From the IMG/VR virus record IMGVR_UViG_3300020203_000070, positions 1-29,433 of that record: 29,433 bases of DNA. One strand, written 5' to 3'. The translations under genes were made by a program, and so were the position numbers. The DNA is from a virus. The stretch's first letter is position 1; each line of letters opens with the position of its first letter. Shown in pieces: positions 3,030 through 27,838 of the stretch. The notes beneath the pieces are model-generated. The model did not search any database. It had not been told where the DNA came from and worked only from the letters and a program-made list of their open reading frames with translations.

Positions 3030-4509
3030 GAATTACGAACACGTCGTTGATCCGTTTCAGCATCAGATCGATCATTTGAAAGATCACTGGCAACAGACTG
3101 CATGGGGTCTCTTATGGGAGCAAGGAACAGCCAAGACCAAGCCGATCATCGACACGGCCGCTCTTCTTTACAGCAACGACGTGATTGATGGTCTGCTCGT
3201 CGTCGCTCCTCCCGGAGTCGAGCGCAACTGGCGATCGGACGAATTACCGAAACACATGCCACCAGACATCGCTCTCGAAACTATGGTCGAGGTCTTCCTT
3301 ACAAGCCGAAAGCATACCAAGCCTCATCAACAGTTGATGGATCGTCTTTGCAGACACAAAGGACTTTCAGTTCTGCTGTTCAGCTACAACGCCTTCATGA
3401 CAAAAGAAGGGAAAGACCTCGCTTGGAAATTCCTTCGTCGTCGGCGCTGCATGTATGTTCTTGATGAGGCACACAACATCAAGAATCCCGGAGCAAAGAG
3501 GACCATCAGCATTATCGCTTCTGGAAAGTATGCGACTCATCGGAGAATTCTCACTGGAACTCCGATTGCAGTCGGTCCTTTCGACATGTATTCCCAGATC
3601 AGGTTTCTTGATGAAAACTTCTGGAAACGCAAGGGGATCAATGGTGCTGTAGAGTTTAGAGCCTATTTCGGTGAGTGGCTCACTCGCAACGAATGCAAGA
3701 TGCAGCTTGGTTATGATCCCGGCTTTGACAAGCTGATCAGATATCGTAACCTCGACAAGCTGGAAGTCTGGATCAAGGAGATCACTGATCGGGTTCTGAA
3801 AGACGATGTTCTCGATCTCCCACCAAAACTCTATTCCAAGCGTTACTTTGAGATGACCAAAGAGCAACTCGCAATCTACGAGCGGCTGTCCGAAGAGTTT
3901 ATGGTCGAGTTCGAAGACGGTGCAATCCTCGATGGTGAACTGCCCATTGTTCGCCTGCTCAGGTTCCAGCAGATTCTTTGTAACTATGTTCCGGTCATCG
4001 ATCTTGCAAACCCTGACGAGGCAACCTATCGCCAGATCGGCAAAGTGAATCCTCGCCTTAACGCAATGGAAGAGATTCGCGATGAGATCTTCCAACCGAC
4101 AATCGTATGGGCACGATTCACTCAAGACGTGGATCAGCTTATGGACCTCTTGGGCGATGAGGCCGTTCGCTACGATGGTCGTGTTGATGGTGATCAAGCC
4201 GAGCGGAATAAGATGGCCTTTCAAGCCGGCGATGCAAAATATTTCGTTGGAACAGCCCAAAAGGGAGGACCAGGATTGACTCTCACACAAGCGAAGAACA
4301 TGATCTATTACTCGAACAGCTTCCGATTGATCGATCGGTTGCAATCAGAAGATCGTGCTCATCGTGCTGGTATGGATGAGCATCCAGTGAACTATATCGA
4401 CATCTGCTGTTCCAATGGTCACATAGATTCCAACATAATCGCCAACCTTCGTGACAAGAAGAACATCAGTGCTGGACTGCTCGGAGACGAGCTGAAAGAA
4501 TGGATTTAA
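3016..4509 (+). CDS. SNF2-like superfamily 2 DNA helicase/translocase
   Basis: A 497-residue ATPase with both RecA-like lobes. Lobe 1: motif I LLWEQGTAKTK (residues 32-42), Ia LLVVAPPGVERNW, II DEAH (150-153), III LTGTP (179-183). Lobe 2: GTAQKGGPGLTLTQA (motif V) and QSEDRAHRAG (motif VI with the arginine finger). This is the set seen in SNF2-type phage translocases, which move on duplex DNA and can remodel forks or displace proteins. Motif I reads GTAKT where GxGKT is usual, so Ala replaces a Gly of the P-loop; the Lys and Thr remain. ATG 3016 is preferred to TTG 3013 because GAGGT at 3005-3009 is well spaced. No nuclease domain is fused. Confidence 0.92.
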   Translation: MLTPENYEHVVDPFQHQIDHLKDHWQQTAWGLLWEQGTAKTKPIIDTAALLYSNDVIDGLLVVAPPGVERNWRSDELPKHMPPDIALETMVEVFLTSRKHTKPHQQLMDRLCRHKGLSVLLFSYNAFMTKEGKDLAWKFLRRRRCMYVLDEAHNIKNPGAKRTISIIASGKYATHRRILTGTPIAVGPFDMYSQIRFLDENFWKRKGINGAVEFRAYFGEWLTRNECKMQLGYDPGFDKLIRYRNLDKLEVWIKEITDRVLKDDVLDLPPKLYSKRYFEMTKEQLAIYERLSEEFMVEFEDGAILDGELPIVRLLRFQQILCNYVPVIDLANPDEATYRQIGKVNPRLNAMEEIRDEIFQPTIVWARFTQDVDQLMDLLGDEAVRYDGRVDGDQAERNKMAFQAGDAKYFVGTAQKGGPGLTLTQAKNMIYYSNSFRLIDRLQSEDRAHRAGMDEHPVNYIDICCSNGHIDSNIIANLRDKKNISAGLLGDELKEWI

Positions 4510-4521
4510 GAAACAAATTAC

Positions 4522-4550
4522 TTGTCATTTACCGTGCCCGAGGTTAAGTT
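4522..4550 (+). promoter_or_regulatory. Phage promoter, copy 1 of the CTTGTCATTT family
   Basis: TTGTCA (4522-4527), 17-base spacer, TAAGTT (4545-4550). The -35 region CTTGTCATTTAC differs at one base from three other copies in this window (25539, 26781, 28779). It opens a 178-base leader before the gene at 4688. Apart from this promoter I see no feature in the leader. Confidence 0.7.
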
Positions 4551-4687
4551 GCTAGGGCGGGTGGTCGTTAGCCATAGGGCCACAAGCTACAGTGTTGAGG
4601 GAGTGCTGGAGCATATCCAGGGGCGGTGACTGTTTAAGAAACCCGTCAAACGATAGAGCCCACCGGAGGCCAACGAATGGAGAAAAC

Positions 4688-5248
4688 ATGACCGAAGTTC
4701 CTGATTACTCTGAGTTCAAAGACACGAACGAAGATATGCTGGGAGACAATATGATGACCTCCCTCGTCGCTTTGGCAGATATACTAGAAGCTGCCGAATC
4801 CGAGGTTGAACGTCTCAAGCTGCTGCTTGAAGAAGCAACTGCAAACGTCCGCCGCATGTCTGAAAATGAAATTCCCAAACTGCTCGACGGCCTGGAGGGC
4901 AAGATCAACCTTCCCGACGGCCGAACGATCACTGTTCAGGAGAAGATTCGGACGTCAGTGTCTGGTGATCGCAAGCCTCGTGCTATGCAATGGCTCGAGG
5001 ACAACGGTCATGGTGCAATCGTCAAGCGCCGAATGACCATTGATCTCTCCAAGGATCAAGAAGAATTGGCGGAAAAGATCAGGGACGCGCTTGAAGCCCT
5101 CGACGAAGCTGTTCTCTTCAAGGAGGAAAAGAACGTCGCTTGGCAGACTCTGGACGCTTTCGTGAAGGAACAACTGACCGACGGCGTCGACATTCCGCTG
5201 GAACTGTTCGGCGTCTATCACCAGAAAATCGCCAAGATCAAGCGATAA
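4688..5248 (+). CDS. Coiled-coil phage protein of unknown function, SSB neighbour
   Basis: A 186-residue protein. ATG 4688 follows GGAG at 4679-4682; the open frame reaches back to 4592, but those codons lie in the leader and have no ribosome site. Residues about 25-60 form a strong coiled coil (ALADILEAAESEVERLKLLL). A short beta hairpin follows (GKINLPDGRTITVQEKIRTS), then a GDRKPRAMQWLEDNGHG segment, and a second long helical region. The product is acidic and soluble. It lies directly before the putative SSB in the same orientation and was probably co-transcribed, which suggests a DNA replication or recombination mediator. I do not recognise a named family. Confidence 0.82.
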   Translation: MTEVPDYSEFKDTNEDMLGDNMMTSLVALADILEAAESEVERLKLLLEEATANVRRMSENEIPKLLDGLEGKINLPDGRTITVQEKIRTSVSGDRKPRAMQWLEDNGHGAIVKRRMTIDLSKDQEELAEKIRDALEALDEAVLFKEEKNVAWQTLDAFVKEQLTDGVDIPLELFGVYHQKIAKIKR

Positions 5249-10299: not shown

Positions 10300-10327
10300 G
10301 AGGCATTGACCAATGAAAGGAAACACA

Positions 10328-11113
10328 ATGACCAAAATCAAGTTCAGCAGCGCAGATTATGACGAGGCCATCCTCAAAAGGATGGAAGACGTCGATCTGC
10401 TGAGTTTGCGCAATCTCGTCGCGACCAACATGGGCGTCTCCTCGATCAAATCGTTCCGCGATCATGATCAGGCCGTCGAAGCGACCTGGAAGGCGCTCAA
10501 CAAGTGGAATGAGCAGGCGAGGGCAGAAGAAAATCAGGCCGCTGGCGAAGCGATCGGGACCGTGTCCGTCAAGACGCCGAAGCCTCCGAAGCCTCCAGCC
10601 GAGCCGAAAGAGCCGGTCGAGGTCAAGGCCGCTCAGCCGAAGACCGTCAAGCGTCCGACCCGGAATATGTTCCGTCGTCTGCAGAAGCTGGTCGAGAAGC
10701 CCGATCGTGGAAGCAAGCGTTGGGACAATTACAAGGATGGCATGACGATCCTGGACACGATCGAGGGCCAAGACATGACGCAAATCGACGTTTCTTTTTT
10801 CGTTCAACACGGCTATATGAAGCTGATCGAGCCGACGACCGAAGAGTTCGAGACCGGTCTGTCTGCATGGTTCGCCCGCAATGGCCAGGAAGACCCGACG
10901 GTCGAGAAGAAGCGCAAGGATGCCGAACGCGCTGCGACGAAGGTCACCAAAGACGTCGAGCGTGATGCCGCCAAGGTCAAGCGCGACGCCGAGAAGACGT
11001 CCAAGGAAGCCGAGCGTGTCGAAGCGAAAGCCAAGCGCGACTCCGAGAAAGCTGCCAAAGACGCTGCTGCTGCGAACGCGGGTGCTACCGCCACCTGGAC
11101 CGCAACGTCCTGA
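10328..11113 (+). CDS. Hypothetical protein with Pro-rich linker and long charged C-terminal helix
   Basis: A 261-residue protein. ATG 10328 has AAGGAA at 10317-10322; the frame extends to 10313 without better support. Three regions are visible: an N-terminal helical domain (about 1-65), a Pro/Lys/Glu linker (TPKPPKPPAEPKEPVE, about 77-92), then a small basic domain (PTRNMFRRLQKLVEKPDRGS). The last 65 residues are an unbroken charged helix built on repeats such as KRDAEK, KDVERDAA and KAKRDSEK. Such single alpha helices often act as rigid spacers or nucleic-acid contacts. It ends by sharing one base with the start of the hypermodification gene (TGATG), so the two are probably translated together. 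Function unknown. Confidence 0.82.
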   Translation: MTKIKFSSADYDEAILKRMEDVDLLSLRNLVATNMGVSSIKSFRDHDQAVEATWKALNKWNEQARAEENQAAGEAIGTVSVKTPKPPKPPAEPKEPVEVKAAQPKTVKRPTRNMFRRLQKLVEKPDRGSKRWDNYKDGMTILDTIEGQDMTQIDVSFFVQHGYMKLIEPTTEEFETGLSAWFARNGQEDPTVEKKRKDAERAATKVTKDVERDAAKVKRDAEKTSKEAERVEAKAKRDSEKAAKDAAAANAGATATWTATS

Positions 11114-12021
11114 TGGACCTGCCGATCGCAACCTCCCGCTTCTTCGACTACATGAAGAAGCGGGAACTGGTCCGTCTCCGGAAGGAGACGGGCCAGTCTC
11201 GCCCTTGGACTGATGATTTCATCCTCCAAGAATACAAATTCACGAACGTTCGTAGACATCACGATTGGACATCGGATATGTTGCGCTCGACGTTCTACAG
11301 CGATCATTTCGACGATGATCCTCGTTCCATCCTGATCAACTGCGCTGTCTATCGCTACTTCGGCACATTCGAATTCGCTGAGGCTGTCGGTTGGTATGAT
11401 TATGATGACTTCGATTTGTGGGAGATCGAAGACTGTGCAACAAATCGCCTCGCAAACGGTGAGCGTGTTTTCACAGGGGCTTATGTCGTTACGAATCAAG
11501 GCATGAGTGCTCCCAAGCCGCAAGTCGTTTGCCATCACTTTCTTTCCGATCTTTATGACGCTGTGCCTGCTCTTTTGGAGCAAGTTCAAAAGACAAGAAG
11601 CTGGCGAGATTTGGCTGGTGCAATGTCCACGATCAAAGGTTTCGGCGGCTCTGGTTTCATGACCAAAGAAGTTCTCCTGGACACAATGATGACAAGTTTC
11701 TGGGGTGGTGAAATCCAATATGTGGACTACCGCAGCTTCACCTATCCAGAAGACTATGACCGCTGGACTCCCGTCGGTCCAGGTGGTGTTCGTGGTGCTG
11801 CTCGCCTTCTTGGGCATGACTCCCCAACGACGGTCAACATTGGCAAGGGCAAGCCGATGGAGATCATAATGCAACTTTACGAAGCCCAAGGAGAGTTCTG
11901 GCCTAAGGAATATGGAAAGCTATTCCCGACAGACATTCAATTCCAGCTTTGTGAGTTCGACAAGTATGAGCGCACTCGTCTGGGACAAGGAAGACCAAGA
12001 AGTCGGTATAAAGGAAGATAA
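11113..12021 (+). CDS. Putative DNA base hypermodification protein (alpha-glutamyl/putrescinyl thymine pyrophosphorylase-like, clade 3)
   Basis: A 302-residue protein with the features I associate with the aGPT-PPlase family. Near the start are RPWTDDFILQEYKFTNVRR (residues 30-48) and later YRYFGTFEFAEAVGW; a helix-hairpin-helix-like IKGFGGSGFMTKE lies at about 174-185; DYDRWTPVGPGGVRGAARLL at 214-233; and a C-terminal LCEFDKYER (279-287). Family members are thought to replace the pyrophosphate (or similar) on activated 5-hydroxymethyluracil in DNA with an amine such as putrescine or an amino acid, giving hypermodified thymine. The fold resembles HhH DNA glycosylases. A TS/hydroxymethylase homologue lies downstream at 15061, which strengthens the case. 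No 5-hydroxymethyl-dU DNA kinase is visible in this window. Confidence 0.85.
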   Translation: MDLPIATSRFFDYMKKRELVRLRKETGQSRPWTDDFILQEYKFTNVRRHHDWTSDMLRSTFYSDHFDDDPRSILINCAVYRYFGTFEFAEAVGWYDYDDFDLWEIEDCATNRLANGERVFTGAYVVTNQGMSAPKPQVVCHHFLSDLYDAVPALLEQVQKTRSWRDLAGAMSTIKGFGGSGFMTKEVLLDTMMTSFWGGEIQYVDYRSFTYPEDYDRWTPVGPGGVRGAARLLGHDSPTTVNIGKGKPMEIIMQLYEAQGEFWPKEYGKLFPTDIQFQLCEFDKYERTRLGQGRPRSRYKGR

Positions 12022-12068
12022 CCAAACGCTTTCTGAAATAAAGATCAAACATGAGATAGGAGACAACT

Positions 12069-12788
12069 ATGACTGAATCAAAAACCGCCAAAATTATAGT
12101 GAATGGCACTGTCGAAGAAAGAGAAATTGAAGTCAAATCAGTAAAAGGATTTTCAACTCCAATCTTTTGCAGAAAAGACACTTATGATCTCTATATCGCA
12201 AAAGAGATTTATCGTTCATACGGAAAATTATCTGTAAAAGATAATGTGGTTCTTGACATCGGTGGAAATATCGGTTTATTTTCAAGATGGGCTTTGGACA
12301 ATAATGCGAAGAAAGTTTATGCTTTCGAGCCTGAGCCCTTCAACTGTGAAATGTTTCAATTGAATTGCCCTGAAGAAGAAATTGTTCTTTGTCAATCGGC
12401 TGTGATTAACGGTGAACAACCGTTTGTTGATTTCTATATTTCTACTTCTGGGAAAAACTCTGGGAATTATACAACCAGAAAGACAAGAGGAAGAACAATC
12501 TCAACAGTATCGGCTGTTTCTATTCAAAAGGTTTTGGAAGAAACGAATCCAGATGTAGCGAAAATTGATTGTGAGGGAGGGGAATACGAAATCTATGAAG
12601 CGATCGCTGATTTTCCGAAATTGAAAGAGGTAGTTTTTGAAATACATCTTACAGTTGGGAGACTTGAGAACGCAAGACATTTGGATGCTTATTTTCTTGA
12701 CAACGGTTGGGAATCATTCATCGCCCCAACTTTAGACAACAGCGGTCTTTGGCAAACAATCGCAGGATACAGAAGGAAAGAATCATGA
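12069..12788 (+). CDS. FkbM-family SAM-dependent methyltransferase
   Basis: A 239-residue methyltransferase. Motif I for S-adenosylmethionine is VVLDIGGNIGLFSRWAL (about residues 61-77), followed by VYAFEPEPFNCEMF (the acidic ribose-binding strand) and AKIDCEGGEYEIYEAI (motif IV region, typical of FkbM). FkbM enzymes methylate hydroxyl groups, often on sugars. The gene is strikingly AT-rich: I count 37 G/C in bases 12121-12240 (31%) against about 52% in a sample of the TS gene, suggesting recent acquisition. AGGAG at 12057-12061 precedes ATG 12069. It overlaps the radical SAM gene by ATGA. Target could be a sugar on modified DNA or a surface glycan. Confidence 0.9.
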   Translation: MTESKTAKIIVNGTVEEREIEVKSVKGFSTPIFCRKDTYDLYIAKEIYRSYGKLSVKDNVVLDIGGNIGLFSRWALDNNAKKVYAFEPEPFNCEMFQLNCPEEEIVLCQSAVINGEQPFVDFYISTSGKNSGNYTTRKTRGRTISTVSAVSIQKVLEETNPDVAKIDCEGGEYEIYEAIADFPKLKEVVFEIHLTVGRLENARHLDAYFLDNGWESFIAPTLDNSGLWQTIAGYRRKES

Positions 12789-13789
12789 ACTATCGCCAAG
12801 GAAATCCATACGTCATTCACATAGAATTTGCAGAGGGCTGCAATCTTCGTTGTGGATTTTGTGGTCTGAACGCTATCAGGGGAAAAGAAAATAACTATAA
12901 GCTGATGACTCGCGAAACTGCGGAATCTGTTTCAAAGCAAATGGCTTCTCTTGGTTGGAATAGTAGAGTTGAAATCGCTATGCACGGCGAGCCGACGATG
13001 AATCCTGACTTCCTGGAATTGATCGCAATCTTCCGACGGCACCTGCCGAAAGCTTACATCTTGCTCGAAAGCAATGGTGGAGGAATCATTGGCGATACTT
13101 CCACAAAGACCGTCCAAGAAATGTTCGGCGCTGGCCTTTCTACTCTGGGCTTGGACGAATACCAGACGATTAAGCTGGTGCCGAAGATCCTGGAGAAAAT
13201 CAAGGAAGAGCAAGGTTGTGGTTTTCTCGAAACCGGCGACAAATTGTTTGATGGCAGCGTTACGTTTTACGATTATCCTTCTTGTGGGGGTGTCGGCAAT
13301 CCTCATAAGCGCAATACGAAGAAGCGGCTTATCTGGATCAGGCCAATCGATGTCAGCACCAGTGGCACTCACAGCAAACTCAGCAATCATGCCGGATCGG
13401 GGGCTCCCAAAAACGATAAAGCTGAGGGAAGAAGGTGTGCAAAACCTTTCAGAGAATTCAATGTTCGGTGGAATGGACAAGTAGCAACCTGCTGCAATGA
13501 TTGGAGAGGAGTCTTTCCTCTTGGATCTATTCATGAACAAGGTCTTGATGAAATTTGGCACTCCGAGGAAATGTATGCTCTTCGTCGAAAACTTTATCAT
13601 GGACAACGTGACTTCGGTGCCTGTGATGGTTGTGACACTTTGTCAATGCGTCCAGGCATTTTGCCGGATCACCTTGGTAAAGAGGAACTCCCAGAACCGA
13701 GTGAAGCAGACTTGGTCCTGATCGCTGAAACCTTGAAGAAGGGACCGCTGACCGCGCCTGTTCTTCGCTCATGGGAAGTCAAAGCATGA
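12785..13789 (+). CDS. Radical SAM enzyme with SPASM-type C-terminal domain
   Basis: A 334-residue enzyme. The CxxxCxxC motif that holds the catalytic 4Fe-4S cluster is CNLRCGFC (Cys19, Cys23, Cys26), followed by the GEP-like SAM contact in AMHGEPTMNPDF (about 66-76). The C-terminal SPASM/twitch region has RCAKPFREFNVRWNGQVATC (Cys218, Cys236 and Cys237), then LGSIHEQGLDEIWHS and CDGC (Cys280, Cys283), enough ligands for one or more auxiliary clusters. These enzymes perform radical chemistry on peptides, sugars or other small substrates. Its substrate is unknown. Coupling by ATGA to FkbM upstream and to the glycosyltransferase downstream argues for one pathway. The 5' part is AT-rich like FkbM, then composition rises. 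Confidence 0.9.
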   Translation: MNYRQGNPYVIHIEFAEGCNLRCGFCGLNAIRGKENNYKLMTRETAESVSKQMASLGWNSRVEIAMHGEPTMNPDFLELIAIFRRHLPKAYILLESNGGGIIGDTSTKTVQEMFGAGLSTLGLDEYQTIKLVPKILEKIKEEQGCGFLETGDKLFDGSVTFYDYPSCGGVGNPHKRNTKKRLIWIRPIDVSTSGTHSKLSNHAGSGAPKNDKAEGRRCAKPFREFNVRWNGQVATCCNDWRGVFPLGSIHEQGLDEIWHSEEMYALRRKLYHGQRDFGACDGCDTLSMRPGILPDHLGKEELPEPSEADLVLIAETLKKGPLTAPVLRSWEVKA

Positions 13790-15051
13790 AAATCGCTGTC
13801 GCCCTTTACAAGATCATGGACCTCGGTGGGATCATCAATCACACTGAGGACCTGATCTATGGCCTCAAAAGGCAAGGCAACGATGTCGATCTGCTTCAAC
13901 TTGTCTACAGCGACAAAGACCAGAAAGATGGAAATCCTCGGACAGGGGACTTCTCGAGGTCTGAGTCCGGACTTCTCTATAACCAGAAAATCGGTTGGGT
14001 CTTCACCAAAGCGAAGAAGGTTCCCTATCAGGGCGGGAAGATGCTGGCCCAAGCGAAGAAGTGGCTGGAAGAATATGACATCATCCTCTGGACGATTCCG
14101 GTTCCATCGACCAATGCTGAGAACGAAGGCAACTGGGAATGGCGCGATCTTTACGATCTCAAGCACCCTGTCCAGATGGCCTTCGTTCACGACGGTGGTG
14201 CCTGCGATCGCTATCCCTATGTCTTGGAAATTCAGGACAAGCTTCATGCTGTTCTGTGTGTCCACCATTCGGCGATCGGCGGCTCCTCGTTCATCAGGAC
14301 ACCGAGGTTCCATGTCCTCAATCCGTTCCGCGATGTCAACCGGGAAGTCCCTTCTTGGGCTGATCGTCGCAAAGGTTTCGTCAGCCTCCAGACTTTCAAA
14401 GGTCTCAAGCACGTCGATGACCTGATCCGTGCGGTCCGTCATATGCCGCCGAAGGAAGACATGGAGTTCAGGGATATCTTCGGAAAGGGTATCGAATATC
14501 AGTATATGACTTCTGCAAACAAATGCAAAGACAAGTATTTTCATGCAGATGGCGAGCGTATCTGGGAAGCGGCCGAAGACAACGGCATGATCCATCACGA
14601 TTACATCGAGCGTGATCAGGTCGACCTTCTTCTGCAAGCGGCGCGGGTTCTTGTCGATCCTTCATGGTCAACTCGTCTCGGTTCTCGCGGCGGGTTCTAT
14701 GGTCGTGTCTTCGTCGAGGCAGCGATCAATGGTGCCATCCCTGTCGGTCGTCCTCTTGGCATTGGAAACTCTTTGTTCCTGCCAGATGTTCATTATGTGT
14801 CCATTCCGATGGACGCAGATGATCAGACCTATGCAGAGATGGTGCATCACGCGAGTTCTGATTCTGCAGACGTGATCAGTATGCGCCAAGAAGTCCGCGA
14901 ACTCGTTCAGTGTTTCGACGCTGACGTTATCGCCAAACGAATTATCGATATCGCTACCGACGATATCGGTGAACCACCTCTGCCTTACGAAGAGGTTCCG
15001 ACCCTCGAGAAAAAGTCCGAGGAAATCATGTTCAATCATTTCGGTTTGTGA
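13786..15051 (+). CDS. GT-B fold glycosyltransferase (GT4-like)
   Basis: A 421-residue protein from ATG 13786, which overlaps the radical SAM stop; an in-frame ATG at 13771 is possible but less likely. The N-terminal Rossmann domain begins MKIAVALYKIMDLGGIINHT, with the glycine-rich turn and GLKRQGNDVDLL typical of GT4 enzymes. The C-terminal donor-binding domain includes VSLQTFKGLKHVDDLIRAVR and GRVFVEAAINGAIPVGRPLG, matching the E-x7-E/EA.A.G.P. region. It would transfer a sugar from a nucleotide donor. Because it sits between a thymine-hypermodification protein and the TS homologue, glycosylation of a modified base is a reasonable idea; surface glycan modification is the alternative. The TS gene follows after nine bases. 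Confidence 0.85.
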   Translation: MKIAVALYKIMDLGGIINHTEDLIYGLKRQGNDVDLLQLVYSDKDQKDGNPRTGDFSRSESGLLYNQKIGWVFTKAKKVPYQGGKMLAQAKKWLEEYDIILWTIPVPSTNAENEGNWEWRDLYDLKHPVQMAFVHDGGACDRYPYVLEIQDKLHAVLCVHHSAIGGSSFIRTPRFHVLNPFRDVNREVPSWADRRKGFVSLQTFKGLKHVDDLIRAVRHMPPKEDMEFRDIFGKGIEYQYMTSANKCKDKYFHADGERIWEAAEDNGMIHHDYIERDQVDLLLQAARVLVDPSWSTRLGSRGGFYGRVFVEAAINGAIPVGRPLGIGNSLFLPDVHYVSIPMDADDQTYAEMVHHASSDSADVISMRQEVRELVQCFDADVIAKRIIDIATDDIGEPPLPYEEVPTLEKKSEEIMFNHFGL

Positions 15052-15060
15052 GGAAATACG

Positions 15061-16128
15061 ATGCACGTTATCGAAGCAAGAAACGTTCATGAGGCGTTGC
15101 CCAAGGGAGTTGCGATGATTCTTGAAAAAGGATTCGATCGTCAGTCCCGTGCCGGCGATGTCAAACTGATCGATGGCCCTGTGACCACGCTCTACCTGAA
15201 TCCTCTCGAGCGGGTCATGTTCCACCCCGATCGCGACTGCAATCCTTTCTTCCACTTCATGGAAGGCTTGTGGATGATCGCTGGTCGCAACGACGTCGCT
15301 TGGATCAGCCAGTTTTCGTCCAACATCGGCCAGTTCAGCGATGATGGCGAAACGTTCCACGGAGCCTATGGCTATCGGTGGGTGAATCACTTCTCCAAAA
15401 AGCAGTTCACTGGCGGAGATGAAAACCCTCATGGCGAAGTCTACATCCCGTTCAATCAGCTGGAATGCGTTGCGGGAATGCTTCGGGAAAACCCTGATGA
15501 ACGTCGCGCCGTTGTGAGCATGTGGTCGGCCGAAGATGACCTCGGTCGTCAGGGGAAAGACCTTCCCTGTAACACGACCATCATGTTTTCGATCAGCGTC
15601 CACGGATCATTGGACATGTCGGTCACCAACCGTTCAAACGACATGGTTTGGGGAACCTACGGCGCGAATGCTGTTCACTTCTCCATGCTCCAAGAATTCA
15701 TGGCGGCATGGATCGGAGTTCCCGTCGGCCGCTACTGGCAGATTTCCAACAACTTTCATTCCTATCTGAAGACGTTGGACCCTATTCGTGAACTGGCCGG
15801 GTTTCTCGACCGCGATCCTCTTCCTTTCGACAATCCCTACGTTCAGATCAAAGGACATGATCCGGTTGTCCCTTTCCAGATGGTGAACAGCGATATCGGC
15901 GAATGGATTCGCGAACTGCAAGTGTTCATGGAATTCGGTCCTGTGACCGGCTTCAAGGACAAGTTCTTCCGCAAGGTCGTGTGTCCCATCTGGCAGGCAT
16001 GGTTCGCCTGGAAGACAGACGAGGGCTCGAAACGTCAGCGGGTCGAAGAAGCGAAGAAACACCTTCGCGGCTGCGCGGCGTTGGATTGGCGGAAAGCCTG
16101 CAACGAATGGCTGGATCGTCGGGCATGA
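15061..16128 (+). CDS. Thymidylate synthase / dUMP(dCMP) hydroxymethylase superfamily enzyme
   Basis: A 355-residue member of the TS fold. The nucleophile is Cys170 in LPCNTTIMFSI, and the phosphate-binding and substrate loop is NRSNDMVWGTYGANAVHFSM (Arg191, Asn203, His206). In classical TS the loop reads QRS.D..LG.PFNIASY. Here TYGANAVHF replaces it, so the Asn that selects uracil is shifted by one position, and the substrate or product may differ. The reaction could be dUMP to dTMP, or to 5-hydroxymethyl-dUMP if water attacks the methylene intermediate. The large N-terminal region with DNPFFH-type text (NPFFHFMEGLWMIAG) is typical of the phage branch. AGGAAA precedes ATG 15061. It overlaps the deoxyribosyltransferase-like gene by ATGA. 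Confidence 0.9.
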   Translation: MHVIEARNVHEALPKGVAMILEKGFDRQSRAGDVKLIDGPVTTLYLNPLERVMFHPDRDCNPFFHFMEGLWMIAGRNDVAWISQFSSNIGQFSDDGETFHGAYGYRWVNHFSKKQFTGGDENPHGEVYIPFNQLECVAGMLRENPDERRAVVSMWSAEDDLGRQGKDLPCNTTIMFSISVHGSLDMSVTNRSNDMVWGTYGANAVHFSMLQEFMAAWIGVPVGRYWQISNNFHSYLKTLDPIRELAGFLDRDPLPFDNPYVQIKGHDPVVPFQMVNSDIGEWIRELQVFMEFGPVTGFKDKFFRKVVCPIWQAWFAWKTDEGSKRQRVEEAKKHLRGCAALDWRKACNEWLDRRA

Positions 16129-16553
16129 AGATTTATATCGCTGCCCGCTATAACAAGAGATATGAACTCTTGGATTTCGCCAAGAGTATCGCCGATCTCG
16201 GCCATACTCTTACTTGTGATTGGCTCTTTGAAGGGGAGGAAGGTAAGACGATAGTTGAAGCAGCGGTCATGGACACTCGGCAAGTAGAAGAGTGTGACTG
16301 CTTGATCTTCATCGGAGAAGCCCAAGGAAGTAAGAACACCGGAGGCGGTCGGTGGTTCGAGATGGGTGTCGCTTGGGCTTGTGGTCACCGCGTCATCGCT
16401 CTTCTCAGTTCGGAAATCGTGGAAGAAGGAAGGGTTCATCTTCCATCCGGACACGAGTCTGTGTTCACAGCACTTAAAGAAGTGGAAATAGCTGAATCAC
16501 AGGAACATGTGTTGTGTCTCTTAGGAGAATCTTATGGAGGAGATAATCAATGA
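16125..16553 (+). CDS. Nucleoside 2-deoxyribosyltransferase-like / deoxynucleotide N-hydrolase
   Basis: A 142-residue protein. It starts MKIYIAARYNKRYELLDFA, continues with GHTLTCDWLF, DTRQVEECDCLIFIGE and GGGRWFEMGVAWACGHRVIAL. These are the segments of the 2-deoxyribosyltransferase/DNPH1 fold, with the catalytic Glu in the GGRxxExG motif. Family members cleave or exchange the base of deoxynucleosides or monophosphates; the animal enzyme DNPH1 hydrolyses 5-hydroxymethyl-dUMP. Translational coupling (ATGA) to the TS/hydroxymethylase gene makes a role in controlling a modified or unwanted deoxynucleotide pool plausible. ATG 16125 was chosen for that overlap; the upstream open frame (to 15903) is inside the TS gene. 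Confidence 0.82.
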   Translation: MKIYIAARYNKRYELLDFAKSIADLGHTLTCDWLFEGEEGKTIVEAAVMDTRQVEECDCLIFIGEAQGSKNTGGGRWFEMGVAWACGHRVIALLSSEIVEEGRVHLPSGHESVFTALKEVEIAESQEHVLCLLGESYGGDNQ

Positions 16554-17140
16554 CGCGTCTTCCAACCTTCGTAGCCCAAGAAGGAGGCGATCACTACCAA
16601 GCTGAATATCAGCATTGGGACTGGGTGCTCGAAGCAGAGATCGGGTATCTCGCTGGCAACGCAACGAAATATATCAGCCGCTGGCGCAAGAAGAACGGCG
16701 TCCCAGATCTGCTGAAAGCATTGTCCTACATCGACAAGATGATCGCCACTCGCAAGACTTCGAAATGGCATTATCATCCAAATCATTGGAAGATCCGTGT
16801 GCTGACCGATCGCTTCATCGCGTCTGCTGGACTGACCGAAGAAGAAGGAAATCTCATCCATCTTCTCGCAGGTCCGTGTCCTCTGGAAATGCTGGAACAC
16901 GCGAGGGACTGTTTGGATAAATTGCTTAGGGACGCTCAGATGGCCGCTAGGGCGCAAGCCATGCCCCCGGCCCCTACAGCACCCGGTACCGGGCCAAGCC
17001 CCGCCCTTGCCCCGCCCTGTGGCGGCGCGGGCCATGCCATAGGGCAGGGGCAAACCGCCACCGCAACCGCAGGGTCACAAGAAAGTGGTCTCACTGGCAT
17101 GGAGCACCCATTCGGGTATGAACAGGAGAGAGAAGTATGA
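16550..17140 (+). CDS. DUF3310 (SaV-like) protein with an unusual GC-rich C-terminal tail
   Basis: A 196-residue protein. Residues 10-70 are a clear DUF3310 domain: EGGDHYQ (11-17), W..VLEAEIGYLAGNATKYI, SRWRKKNGV, DLLKALSYIDKMI. DUF3310 proteins are common in phage nucleotide-metabolism clusters and are sometimes labelled nucleotide kinase, but I see no P-loop, so function is unproven. A second helical region runs to about residue 132. The last 60 or so residues are low-complexity (PPAPTAPGTGPSPALAPP and onward) and are encoded by DNA that I count as 62 G/C of 80 in 16961-17040. This tail looks like intergenic DNA read in frame. It contains a 12-bp palindrome CCCGGTACCGGG (16982-16993) and the first 17-bp direct repeat. 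ATGA overlap with the previous gene. Confidence 0.85.
   Translation: MTRLPTFVAQEGGDHYQAEYQHWDWVLEAEIGYLAGNATKYISRWRKKNGVPDLLKALSYIDKMIATRKTSKWHYHPNHWKIRVLTDRFIASAGLTEEEGNLIHLLAGPCPLEMLEHARDCLDKLLRDAQMAARAQAMPPAPTAPGTGPSPALAPPCGGAGHAIGQGQTATATAGSQESGLTGMEHPFGYEQEREV
16948..16960 (+). repeat. 13-bp repeat TAGGGCGCAAGCC, copy 1
   Basis: TAGGGCGCAAGCC occurs here and again at 24340-24352, both times at the edge of a very GC-rich patch and near a gene end. The two patches share C-rich wording (CCCTG, GCCCC), suggesting a small dispersed element or a recombination site rather than coding constraint. Confidence 0.55.
17105..17121 (+). repeat. 17-bp direct repeat CACCCATTCGGGTATGA, left copy
   Basis: Exact match to 17695-17711. 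The two copies bracket the C5-methyltransferase-like gene. Each includes ACCC-ATTC-GGGT and a TATGAA/TATGAT hexamer that could serve as a -10 element. This copy lies inside the tail of the DUF3310 gene. Confidence 0.8.
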
Positions 17141-17694
17141 GAGTGCTCATCGCCTGCGAATTCTCTGGAATTGTAAGAGATGCCTTTCTTTCCTCGGGTG
17201 TTGACGCCATATCGTGCGATCTCCTGCCGAGCGAGACTCCAGGCCCGCATTACCAAGGTGATGTGATGGAAATGGCGCGGGACGGTTGGGACATGCTCAT
17301 AGCCTTTCCGCCTTGCACCGATCTGTGTGTCAGTGGTGCACGGTGGTTCCCGGCCAAGCGGGCCGACGGGCGGCAACAGGCCAGCATCGCCTTTTTCATG
17401 GCGCTGGCAAACGCACCCATCCCGCGCATTGCGATTGAAAACCCGATTGGCATCATGTCGAGCCATTGGCGCAAGCCTGATCAGATCATTCAGCCCCATC
17501 AGTTCGGCCACGGCGAAACCAAGGCCACATGCCTTTGGCTCAAGGGATTGCCGCTGTTGCAGCCGACCGATCATGTCGCGGGCCGCGAAGCGCGGGTTCA
17601 TCGTATGCCGCCTGGGCCTGACCGCTGGAAGGAGCGTTCGCGCACATATATCGGAATTGCGAAAGCTATGGCTTCCCAATGGCTCACAGCATGA
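17137..17694 (+). CDS. C5-cytosine-methyltransferase-like protein without recognition domain
   Basis: A 185-residue protein. It has an N-terminal SAM-site-like segment (MRVLIACEFSGIVRDAF), SCDLLPSE, an acid residue in GDVMEM, the catalytic-loop PPC in AFPPCTDLCVSG (Cys60), ENP at 101-103 (motif VI, ENV in classical enzymes), then KATCLWLKGLP and a C-terminal RSRTYIGIAKAMASQW. These are the motifs of a short C5-cytosine methyltransferase family frequent in phages. No target-recognition domain is present, so DNA specificity is unclear, and it could act on another cytosine substrate. The gene is GC-rich (41 of 60 in 17341-17400) and flanked by a 17-bp direct repeat. GAGAG just upstream of ATG 17137 is a fair ribosome site. 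Confidence 0.85.
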   Translation: MRVLIACEFSGIVRDAFLSSGVDAISCDLLPSETPGPHYQGDVMEMARDGWDMLIAFPPCTDLCVSGARWFPAKRADGRQQASIAFFMALANAPIPRIAIENPIGIMSSHWRKPDQIIQPHQFGHGETKATCLWLKGLPLLQPTDHVAGREARVHRMPPGPDRWKERSRTYIGIAKAMASQWLTA

Positions 17695-20267: not shown

Positions 20268-20637
20268 TCATGGTGGCGGCTGTCCTTGCGGATTGCAGAA
20301 AGTCTGCGACTGCGAGGCTGGAAAACCTGTTCGCTCTGTTCAAGGGCAGGTCTTTGACTGGGCGAAAGTGATGTTCGGGAATCCTTCGCCCCTTGCGCTT
20401 TCCGTTCGTGGGAACAAAGAGATGTCCGAGTTGATTTCGACTCTGATCAACAAGCCAAGTGAAACTGAAGAAATCATCGAAGAATGCGCCGATGTCGCTT
20501 TCTTCCTGCTACAAATATGTGAGATCAATGGCGGCGATCTCATGGAAGCTGTCGCCAAGAAACTAGAAGTCAACAAGAATCGCTCTTGGGAAATCGCTTC
20601 TGACGGATCGTTTCAGCATGTGGGGAAATCTAAATGA
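20254..20637 (+). CDS. MazG/DUF550-like nucleotide pyrophosphohydrolase with N-terminal Cys cluster
   Basis: A 127-residue protein. Residues about 5-20 carry CPCGLQKVCDC, a likely metal site. From about 32 on it follows the all-alpha NTP pyrophosphohydrolase pattern: FDWAKVMFG, KEMSELISTL, then EEIIEECADVAFFLLQI, where the acidic residues would bind magnesium, and KKLEVNKNRSW. Such enzymes convert (d)NTPs to monophosphates plus pyrophosphate; DUF550 relatives act on dATP/dGTP in some phages. Here a pool-cleaning role next to dCTP deaminase is likely. ATG 20254 is preferred to 20242 because GGAGAAG at 20244-20250 gives proper spacing. The next gene starts in its stop codon region (ATGA). Confidence 0.8.
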   Translation: MAKYDHGGGCPCGLQKVCDCEAGKPVRSVQGQVFDWAKVMFGNPSPLALSVRGNKEMSELISTLINKPSETEEIIEECADVAFFLLQICEINGGDLMEAVAKKLEVNKNRSWEIASDGSFQHVGKSK

Positions 20638-21161
20638 TTCTCAGTTCACAAACCATTCGCCGCTACTGTGAAGAGCAGGATTTGATCTCTCCGTTTTACG
20701 AGCGGACGAGACATGAAGGGATGACGTTCGGTCTCAGTCCCGCTGGCTACGACGTTCGGGTCGAGTTTGGCCCGGAATCGCTTTACTCCTATCGCATCCT
20801 CAATCCGGGTGATTTCATTCTGGCTTCTACGGTTGAACGGTTCAAGATGCCGAACGATCTCATCGCTTCTGTTGCCGATAAATCCTCTTGGGCTCGTCGT
20901 GGATTGGCCGTGCAGAACACTATCATCGAGCCGGGATGGGAAGGCTGGTTGACTCTTGAACTGACCAACCATGGAAGGGAAACTCTGCGGATCGAAAAAG
21001 GAATGGCGATCGCTCAAATCGTTTTCCAAAGGTTGGACTTCCCGACCGATCAACCTTACGAAGGGAAATATCAAGACCAGCGACGGGGACCAGTTGGCGC
21101 AATTCGCGACATTTCTGACTTGTCAAATGCACCGGGGCAGGGTAAGGTTAGGGGTTCCTGA
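20634..21161 (+). CDS. dcd: dCTP deaminase (Dcd/dUTPase family)
   Basis: A 175-residue enzyme that deaminates dCTP to dUTP, supplying uracil nucleotides for the TS homologue. Visible family motifs: LSPAGYDVRVEFG (34-46), DKSSWARRGLAVQNT (82-96), IIEPGWEGWLTLELTNHG (97-114). The catalytic Glu of deaminases corresponds to Glu109 in LTLELTN. Some family members also hydrolyse dUTP to dUMP; I cannot tell which here. It is coupled by ATGA to the MazG-like gene. The C-terminal tail (DQRRGPVGAIRD and after) is consistent with the lid segment of this family. Confidence 0.9.
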   Translation: MILSSQTIRRYCEEQDLISPFYERTRHEGMTFGLSPAGYDVRVEFGPESLYSYRILNPGDFILASTVERFKMPNDLIASVADKSSWARRGLAVQNTIIEPGWEGWLTLELTNHGRETLRIEKGMAIAQIVFQRLDFPTDQPYEGKYQDQRRGPVGAIRDISDLSNAPGQGKVRGS

Positions 21162-27090: not shown

Positions 27091-27320
27091 TCACATTCGT
27101 TGGAGAGCGGGGAGTCGAAACATTTCGTGCGATCTCCCTCAAAGCTGGCCTCAGAATATTCGCCAGGACCGGTATGAAGCCGAGCCATAGTTGGACACCG
27201 ACTGCCATGCTCAAAGCCGCTGGCACGATCACAGGTAAGGTCTACAAGCGTGGTCAGTATGATCTGGCCGTGGCTGATCTGGATGCCTGGATCAAATCGA
27301 ATGGAACGACCGGCACATGA
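27087..27320 (+). CDS. Small hypothetical protein
   Basis: A 77-residue protein starting at ATG 27087 in an ATGA overlap, with GGAGG at 27077-27081. It is basic, with helical text (FRAISLKAGLRIFARTG) and a repeated-looking AGTITGKVYKRGQYDLAVAD. No recognised domain. Probably a DNA- or protein-binding accessory; the longer frame back to 26952 lies inside the previous gene. Confidence 0.7.
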   Translation: MITFVGERGVETFRAISLKAGLRIFARTGMKPSHSWTPTAMLKAAGTITGKVYKRGQYDLAVADLDAWIKSNGTTGT

Positions 27321-27838
27321 ATCTGTTCGTCTCCAGTTTTTGCCCAAGAGAGAGTGCTCAGTTTCTCGATGACAAGCGCGTCGGGAAACTGCTCATGGAA
27401 GCAAATCAACTGCTTTCGTTGGCGATCAAGCTTCATCATGATCAGCCTTTCCCTCGTGACCATATTGGTCCAGGTCTGGTGTGCGATGGATTCGCACACC
27501 AGAATCATCCGGTCAGCATCTGGGTCCGCAAGACACGATCCAATTTTGACTGGACCTCGCAACATGCTTTCGCTTTGTCCGAGGAGTTCACTCACCGCTT
27601 CGGCAAAGAACATGCCTCTGGACACAGGACCTCGGTCATCCTTGAGTGGAGAGAAAACGTCCCAGAGGGTCCACTCACAGAGTTCCAGAATTCCGCCAAG
27701 AATGCTTCGGTCGGAGTGGACATGTCCCATCATCCTGTTCCAGAATCGTATCGTGCATATCTTGATGCTCGGTGGGAAGGAGACGCTCGCCCTCCCAAGT
27801 GGACAAACCGTGGTCAACCAGAATGGAGTCACTACTGA
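27317..27838 (+). CDS. Conserved phage protein, family often annotated pyrimidine-dimer glycosylase
   Basis: A 173-residue protein. The pattern MNLFVSSFCPRESAQFLDDK, GKLLMEANQLLSLA, HQNHPVSIWVRKT, FALSEEFTHRFGKEHAS recalls a widespread phage family whose members are often labelled pyrimidine-dimer DNA glycosylase. I see the conserved DDKR, NHP and HRFGK-type segments but not the defining residues of T4 DenV, so enzymatic function is doubtful. It starts by ATGA overlap with the previous gene. DNA repair or a regulatory role are both possible. Confidence 0.75.
   Translation: MNLFVSSFCPRESAQFLDDKRVGKLLMEANQLLSLAIKLHHDQPFPRDHIGPGLVCDGFAHQNHPVSIWVRKTRSNFDWTSQHAFALSEEFTHRFGKEHASGHRTSVILEWRENVPEGPLTEFQNSAKNASVGVDMSHHPVPESYRAYLDARWEGDARPPKWTNRGQPEWSHY

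Follow-up and report, generated by a model that had tools for sequence, protein, structure and literature searches.

Comparison with described hypermodification systems

The DNA of Pseudomonas phage M6 contains 5-(2-aminoethyl)deoxyuridine (5-NedU) (PMC6449724). M6 and its relatives (Stenotrophomonas phage Sonora and PaMx11-like phages) share a thymidylate synthase (TS)-like hydroxymethylase, the protein family HMUDK_hel, a genomic slot and the order of flanking genes with the locus analyzed here, which lies on IMGVR_UViG_3300020203_000070, a linear virus contig of 29,433 bases that covers part of an uncultured phage's genome; this whole stretch is referred to as the window. Unlike the M6 system, the window is devoid of a 5-hydroxymethyldeoxyuridine (5-hmdU) DNA kinase, an amino acid:DNA transferase (ADDT), and a pyridoxal phosphate (PLP)-dependent enzyme, and encodes instead a glycosyltransferase (GT), a BtrN-like radical S-adenosylmethionine (SAM) enzyme, and an FkbM-family methyltransferase. 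We consider it likely that this locus represents a branch of phage thymine hypermodification that needs no kinase: a sugar would be attached directly to 5-hmdU in DNA, and this sugar would then be modified by the radical SAM enzyme and, in this phage, O-methylated.

A published phage system combines TS, HMUDK_hel, and a GT near PolA, and its authors already suggest a functionality beyond that of M6. The terms "radical SAM" and "FkbM" are absent from that paper, its GT family differs from that of the window, and an exclusion of kinase and transferase is not reported in the available part. In phage systems with TET/JBP oxygenases and TET-associated glycosyltransferases (TAGT; PF12851 and PF20691), base hydroxymethylation is likewise followed by glycosylation, and the same radical SAM family occurs in some of them (loci L025, L033, L036, L124, and L207-L214). 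However, in these systems the oxygenase hydroxylates the base on DNA, in place of a hydroxymethylation of dUMP, and neither HMUDK_hel nor TS is found near the radical SAM gene. Bacillus phage SP-15 carries a sugar on a modified thymine of its DNA, as we propose for the window, but its dihydroxypentyluracil is made before DNA synthesis and depends on another gene cluster, and no radical SAM/HMUDK_hel cassette is described in the available part of the source (PMC5977210).

A gene cassette in the modification slot of M6-type phages

The window follows the gene order of M6 and Sonora, i.e., SNF2 helicase, gp33-like, gp34-like, Dda-like helicase, ribonucleotide reductase (absent from the Sonora stretch), a variable block, the TS-like gene, DUF3310, PolA, and primase. 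The modification genes of M6 fall in the same variable block, and the cassette of the window occupies their slot, with the GT, radical SAM, and FkbM genes standing in place of the M6 kinase (PF18748) and ADDT (PF18724). The cassette comprises the following genes:

11113..12021, + strand: HMUDK_hel (PF18723, formerly aGPT-PPlase clade 1), 302 amino acids; Pfam match 5.5e-32; presumed 5-hmdU-DNA recognition or scaffold protein, without a kinase domain
12069..12788, + strand: FkbM-family SAM methyltransferase, 239 amino acids; PF05050 6e-11, TIGR01444 3e-20; optional, probably for sugar O-methylation
12785..13789, + strand: BtrN-like twitch radical SAM enzyme, 334 amino acids; PF04055 3e-10, SPASM/twitch PF13186 4e-13; probable sugar tailoring (dehydrogenase/epimerase-type)
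13786..15051, + strand: GT-B/GT4-type glycosyltransferase (family "C22"), 421 amino acids from the ATG at 13786; family Pfam and GlgA/GT4 profile matches
15061..16128, + strand: TS-family pyrimidine hydroxymethylase, 355 amino acids; TS family 1.5e-20, phrog_5131 1.7e-115; probably dUMP to hmdUMP
16125..16553, + strand: protein with a nucleoside deoxyribosyltransferase (NDT)/DNPH1/MilB-like fold, 142 amino acids; PF05014 E=0.0012, sub-threshold

All 6 genes had been picked out by a sequence-only reading of the window and were confirmed, the NDT/DNPH1-like one as a sub-threshold likeness only. That reading had also described most of them as joined by ATGA overlaps. Such overlaps were found at the FkbM/radical SAM, radical SAM/GT, and TS/NDT-like junctions, as well as between the NDT-like gene and DUF3310, but a gap of 47 nucleotides separates HMUDK_hel from FkbM and one of 9 nucleotides separates the GT from TS. 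The gene cluster is a real cassette and no chance assembly.

Co-occurrence with glycosyltransferases and absence of the kinase

The radical SAM enzyme recurs in well over 100 IMG/VR contigs. A single-sequence scan yielded 34 loci and a profile scan 185 relatives, 80 of which were retrieved. After removal of identical radical SAM proteins, 79 distinct ones remained, 53 of them with at least 4 kb on both sides, and neighbors were counted within 8 kb. TAGT proteins, which a fusion in locus L034 had joined to the radical SAM cluster, were split from it before counting. The counts cover relatives of the window enzyme only and are uncorrected for relatedness. A GT was present in all 53 distinct neighborhoods, HMUDK_hel in 50, and a TS-like gene in 49, while a TET/JBP oxygenase was found in 2 and an M6-type kinase or ADDT in none. 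The sequence-only reading had named, as evidence that would speak against it, neighborhoods in which FkbM, radical SAM, and GT genes never accompany the hypermodification protein; these counts show the opposite. One of 4 loci classed as incomplete (L075) contains the full gene set under a looser listing.

Gene-by-gene scans revealed no 5-hmdU DNA kinase (PF18748) in the window, as had been noted before from the sequence. Furthermore, family searches of 26 longer radical SAM records (38-99 kb) identified neither PF18748 nor PF18724 in any of them, while both controls, M6 and Sonora, were matched (2/2). On the basis of these 26 records and the controls, a kinase encoded elsewhere in the phage genome was rejected, and the absence of the kinase is a feature of the GT-type branch and not of an incomplete window.

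The same picture was obtained starting from HMUDK_hel. Among its 80 nearest loci, 75 encode a GT, and 73 of these also TS, whereas the radical SAM enzyme is present in 17 and an FkbM relative in 21. The single kinase locus (L157) and the single ADDT locus (L166) both lack a GT. When M6 and Sonora are included, a GT occurs in 0 of 4 kinase/ADDT loci compared to 75 of the 78 others (Fisher p=2e-5, uncorrected for phylogeny). Since 73 of the 80 loci combine GT and TS, HMUDK_hel, GT, and TS constitute the wider core, to which radical SAM and FkbM genes are added as options.

In L034 (positions 3324-5063), a single open reading frame of 579 amino acids fuses a TET-associated GT (PF20691-like) to a BtrN-like radical SAM enzyme. 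Moreover, in the TET/JBP loci named above as well as in L024, L026, and L220, the same radical SAM family adjoins Tet_JBP oxygenases and GTs without HMUDK_hel or TS, and the constant partner of the radical SAM enzyme is thus the GT. Among 84,980 bacterial and archaeal species genomes, one close radical SAM relative was identified, in Actinomadura, beside a TET gene and a GT. As a separate observation, L260 and L263 contain two radical SAM-like matches and two TAGT genes per cluster, with no HMUDK_hel or TS within 8 kb.

Predicted functions of the cassette proteins

The radical SAM enzyme carries the CxxxCxxC motif (C19/C23/C26) and auxiliary-cluster cysteines C218/C236/C280/C283, and 77 of the 79 distinct proteins follow the pattern C-x17-CC-x42..44-C-x2-C or a near variant with x19. 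BtrN is its top PDB match both in profile searches (1.2e-20) and by Foldseek (4m7t, E 7e-16, TM-score 0.80 by target length), followed in the fold ranking by anSMEcpe and SpeY, with DesII and BlsE lower. All 7 cluster cysteines of BtrN are kept, together with its spacings C-x17-C and C-x2-C. BtrN catalyzes the two-electron oxidation of a cyclitol alcohol, and its auxiliary cluster is held by 4 cysteines (PMC9012708). The window enzyme has the fold, the CxxxCxxC motif, and the 4 auxiliary-cluster cysteines in common with the aminocyclitol-antibiotic dehydrogenases BtrN and SpeY, which are likewise twitch radical SAM enzymes, but it is phage-borne, linked to DNA modification genes, and longer at its C-terminus. 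Our best guess from these similarities is that it oxidizes or epimerizes the transferred sugar, at the level of DNA or of the sugar donor.

The window GT itself matches Pfam below threshold (0.017); however, Glycos_transf_1 is matched by 9 of 14 members of its family, and the family profile matches GlgA/GT4 structures at approximately 1e-4. It showed no match to TAGT (PF20691) and belongs to a GT-B/GT4-like family instead. In relatives, the GT slot is filled by TAGT (PF20691), C11, or C28 GTs. TAGT relatives include the T-even beta-glucosyl-HMC-alpha-glucosyltransferases, and T-even enzymes of this family put a second glucose on glucosylated DNA (PMC13390438). No relatives of the radical SAM enzyme, the C22 GT, or the C11 GT were found in cultured phages of the collection searched, the lone exception for the radical SAM enzyme in this collection being a match of 22.7% identity to a fecal metagenomic phage record. 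In or near the cassettes of L015, L016, L018, L023, L171, and L172, a cytidylyltransferase-like and mannose-6-phosphate isomerase/cupin protein is encoded, which suggests a phage-made sugar nucleotide in some relatives.

With 111.7 bits (gathering cut-off 25), residues 8-290 of HMUDK_hel match positions 5-276 of the 281-position PF18723 profile. Its homologs are M6 gp55 and Sonora gp42; in M6, gp55 adjoins the 5-hmdU DNA kinase gp54 (PF18748), and the ADDT is encoded by a separate gene, gp51 (PF18724). Since 23 residues are invariant across kinase-type and GT-type phages, the two types probably share its core function, and the former "aGPT-PPlase clade 1" protein can be recast as a part shared by the kinase and GT routes. 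Its AlphaFold model is confident and all-helical (pLDDT 91.5), with no PDB neighbor by fold comparison and no PDB match by profile search. The sequence-only reading had taken this protein for an aGPT-PPlase-like hypermodification protein and pointed to clade 3. It is, however, HMUDK_hel, which is the hmdU kinase's helical partner, and PF18723 corresponds to the former clade 1. An aGPT-PPlase/ADDT activity was rejected, as ADDT forms a family of its own, with no member here or in the 26 longer records. The thymine hypermodification pathway proposed in that reading is largely supported as a 5-hmdU cassette with GT, radical SAM, and methyltransferase tailoring, but not in its aGPT-PPlase-type transfer step.

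The TS-like protein is 47% identical to M6 gp58, with Cys170 and Asn203 invariant, and its best PDB match is CMP 5-hydroxymethylase, ahead of every thymidylate synthase. Asn203 aligns with an Asp of CMP 5-hydroxymethylase; in the TS family, an Asn at this position fits a uracil substrate. Judged by these residues and matches, the enzyme is probably a dUMP hydroxymethylase that makes hmdUMP. The adjacent NDT-like protein reaches 19.5 bits against PF05014 (gathering cut-off 28.8), which is a likeness only, and has no NCBIfam or PDB match. Its gene sits in the slot that in relatives is taken by an HD 5'-deoxynucleotidase (M6 gp59), and the two genes occur together in none of the 80 HMUDK_hel loci.

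The FkbM assignment is supported by PF05050 (43.1 bits, cut-off 22.7) and TIGR01444 (73.1 bits, cut-off 37.7). GC content at third codon positions is 0.31 in this gene compared to 0.45-0.73 in its neighbors. The gene is absent from L006, whose GT is 95% identical to that of the window and whose radical SAM enzyme is only 82% identical. In L004, the FkbM and radical SAM proteins are 100% and 99.7% identical to those of the window pair (12069-13789), compared to 92-97% for HMUDK_hel, GT, and TS. FkbM looks like a recent, mobile addition, and FkbM and the radical SAM gene look like a mobile pair.

Proposed pathway and alternative explanations

In the pathway we propose, the TS-like enzyme would, very probably, make 5-hydroxymethyl-dUMP, which would be incorporated and so replace some of the thymine of the phage DNA. 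HMUDK_hel would then act at 5-hmdU DNA as a factor for recognition or recruitment, common to both branches, and the GT, not a kinase, would put a sugar on the hydroxymethyl group. Co-occurrence, the one fusion, and homology suggest that the BtrN-like enzyme may next abstract a hydrogen from this sugar, most likely oxidizing a hydroxyl or epimerizing; its substrate could be the sugar on DNA or, immediately before the transfer, the sugar donor. O-methylation of the sugar by FkbM would be an optional fourth step. A probable role of the NDT/DNPH1-like enzyme, which replaces the HD nucleotidase, is to remove a competing deoxynucleotide, e.g., dTMP. The pathway would end in a glycosyl-5-hmdU with further decorations, which would shield the DNA from host nucleases.

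Such a pathway would represent a second outcome of the 5-hmdU route, in which direct glycosylation and radical/methyl tailoring take the place of phosphorylation and amino-acid transfer. The radical SAM family would also be defined as a phage-linked one with ties to DNA glycosylation, and relatives of the gene set are frequent in environmental phages and almost never found in cultured ones. The modifications may help abundant environmental phages to escape restriction enzymes, and DNA-labeling tools could be developed from the enzymes. A more far-reaching version holds that radical chemistry acts directly on the DNA polymer to oxidize or otherwise rebuild the sugar on phage thymine, that this sugar is also O-methylated in the window phage, and that many uncultured phages use these steps in combinable form, starting with a hydroxymethylase or with a TET/JBP oxygenase; we put this forward tentatively, as a real possibility. 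To our knowledge, such a class of DNA base chemistry has not been described.

Several points weigh against the proposed branch. The base chemistry of all members is a prediction from gene content, the window covers only part of an uncultured phage's genome, and no radical SAM-bearing phage in the collection searched is a cultured one. A TS-family sequence by itself is no proof of hydroxymethylation over methylation. The role of HMUDK_hel as a 5-hmdU-DNA recognition factor is guesswork, with a fold that has no solved neighbor. Moreover, BtrN is a distant homolog (18% identity across the model), and the chemistry of twitch enzymes varies. Finally, the radical SAM gene is missing from many phages with HMUDK_hel, GT, and TS, and is thus an option and not essential, and FkbM relatives often lie downstream of PolA, outside the cassette.

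Among the alternatives, the radical SAM enzyme could take a soluble sugar nucleotide as its substrate, in the way that DesII uses a TDP-sugar, with the GT transferring the already altered sugar. DesII, SpeY, and BlsE are among its fold neighbors, and the cytidylyltransferase-cupin protein of some relatives has the look of sugar-nucleotide synthesis. However, most radical SAM loci lack sugar-nucleotide genes, and we regard this order of events as rather unlikely; the TAGT-radical SAM fusion is compatible with either order.

It is improbable that the target of the radical SAM enzyme is the base itself or the 5-substituent, e.g., for a carbon-carbon rearrangement as ascribed to the M6 radical SAM protein, with a GT that works independently. 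The M6 thymine cassette does contain a radical SAM-type protein (gp53, annotated as photolyase), and radical SAM steps on thymine derivatives in the M6-type system were reportedly described by Lee et al. in 2022. However, gp53 is not homologous to the window enzyme at phmmer sensitivity. The latter is nearest to the cyclitol dehydrogenase BtrN, has a GT nearby in every one of the 53 neighborhoods and is fused to one once, and occurs without HMUDK_hel or TS in the TET loci.

A kinase/amino-acid branch as in M6 or ViI shares the PF18723 protein and the TS-like gene with the window. Here, hmdU would be phosphorylated by a kinase encoded elsewhere and the phosphate displaced by an aGPT-PPlase-type transferase, with FkbM, radical SAM, and GT decorating the result. 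Given that PF18748 and PF18724 were missing from 26 of 26 long records, with both controls detected, and that GT and kinase/ADDT are mutually exclusive in the HMUDK_hel loci, this is highly improbable.

Glycan synthesis commonly involves FkbM and GT4 enzymes. However, the idea, also voiced in the sequence-only reading, that FkbM, GT, and radical SAM alter host or virion surface or tail glycans and stand beside nucleotide genes by chance is very unlikely in view of their constant association with TS and HMUDK_hel in phages that are highly divergent, the TET-associated DNA glycosyltransferases that fill the same slot, the alternative linkage of the radical SAM gene to TET/JBP oxygenases, and the replacement of the M6 modification genes at one locus.

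Flanking genes and further observations

Outside the cassette, the following features border the exchanged region or may bear on nucleotide supply:

10313..11113, + strand: cassette-flanking gene, homolog of M6 gp49 (phmmer 2.4e-7), left border of the swapped region
16550..17140, + strand: DUF3310 protein (PF11753 2.8e-7, conserved order), right border conserved with M6-type phages
20634..21161, + strand: dCTP deaminase/dUTPase-like protein (PF22769 2e-26, PF00692 1e-9), plausible dUMP supply for the hydroxymethylase

Window positions 17137-17694 encode a short protein that matches phrog_757, a phage DNA methyltransferase family, at 4.7e-71 and has a PPC-type motif but no Pfam match; it is possibly a reduced C5-methyltransferase-like protein. 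Furthermore, a pyrimidine dimer DNA glycosylase (T4 DenV-like, PF03013) is encoded at 27317-27838.

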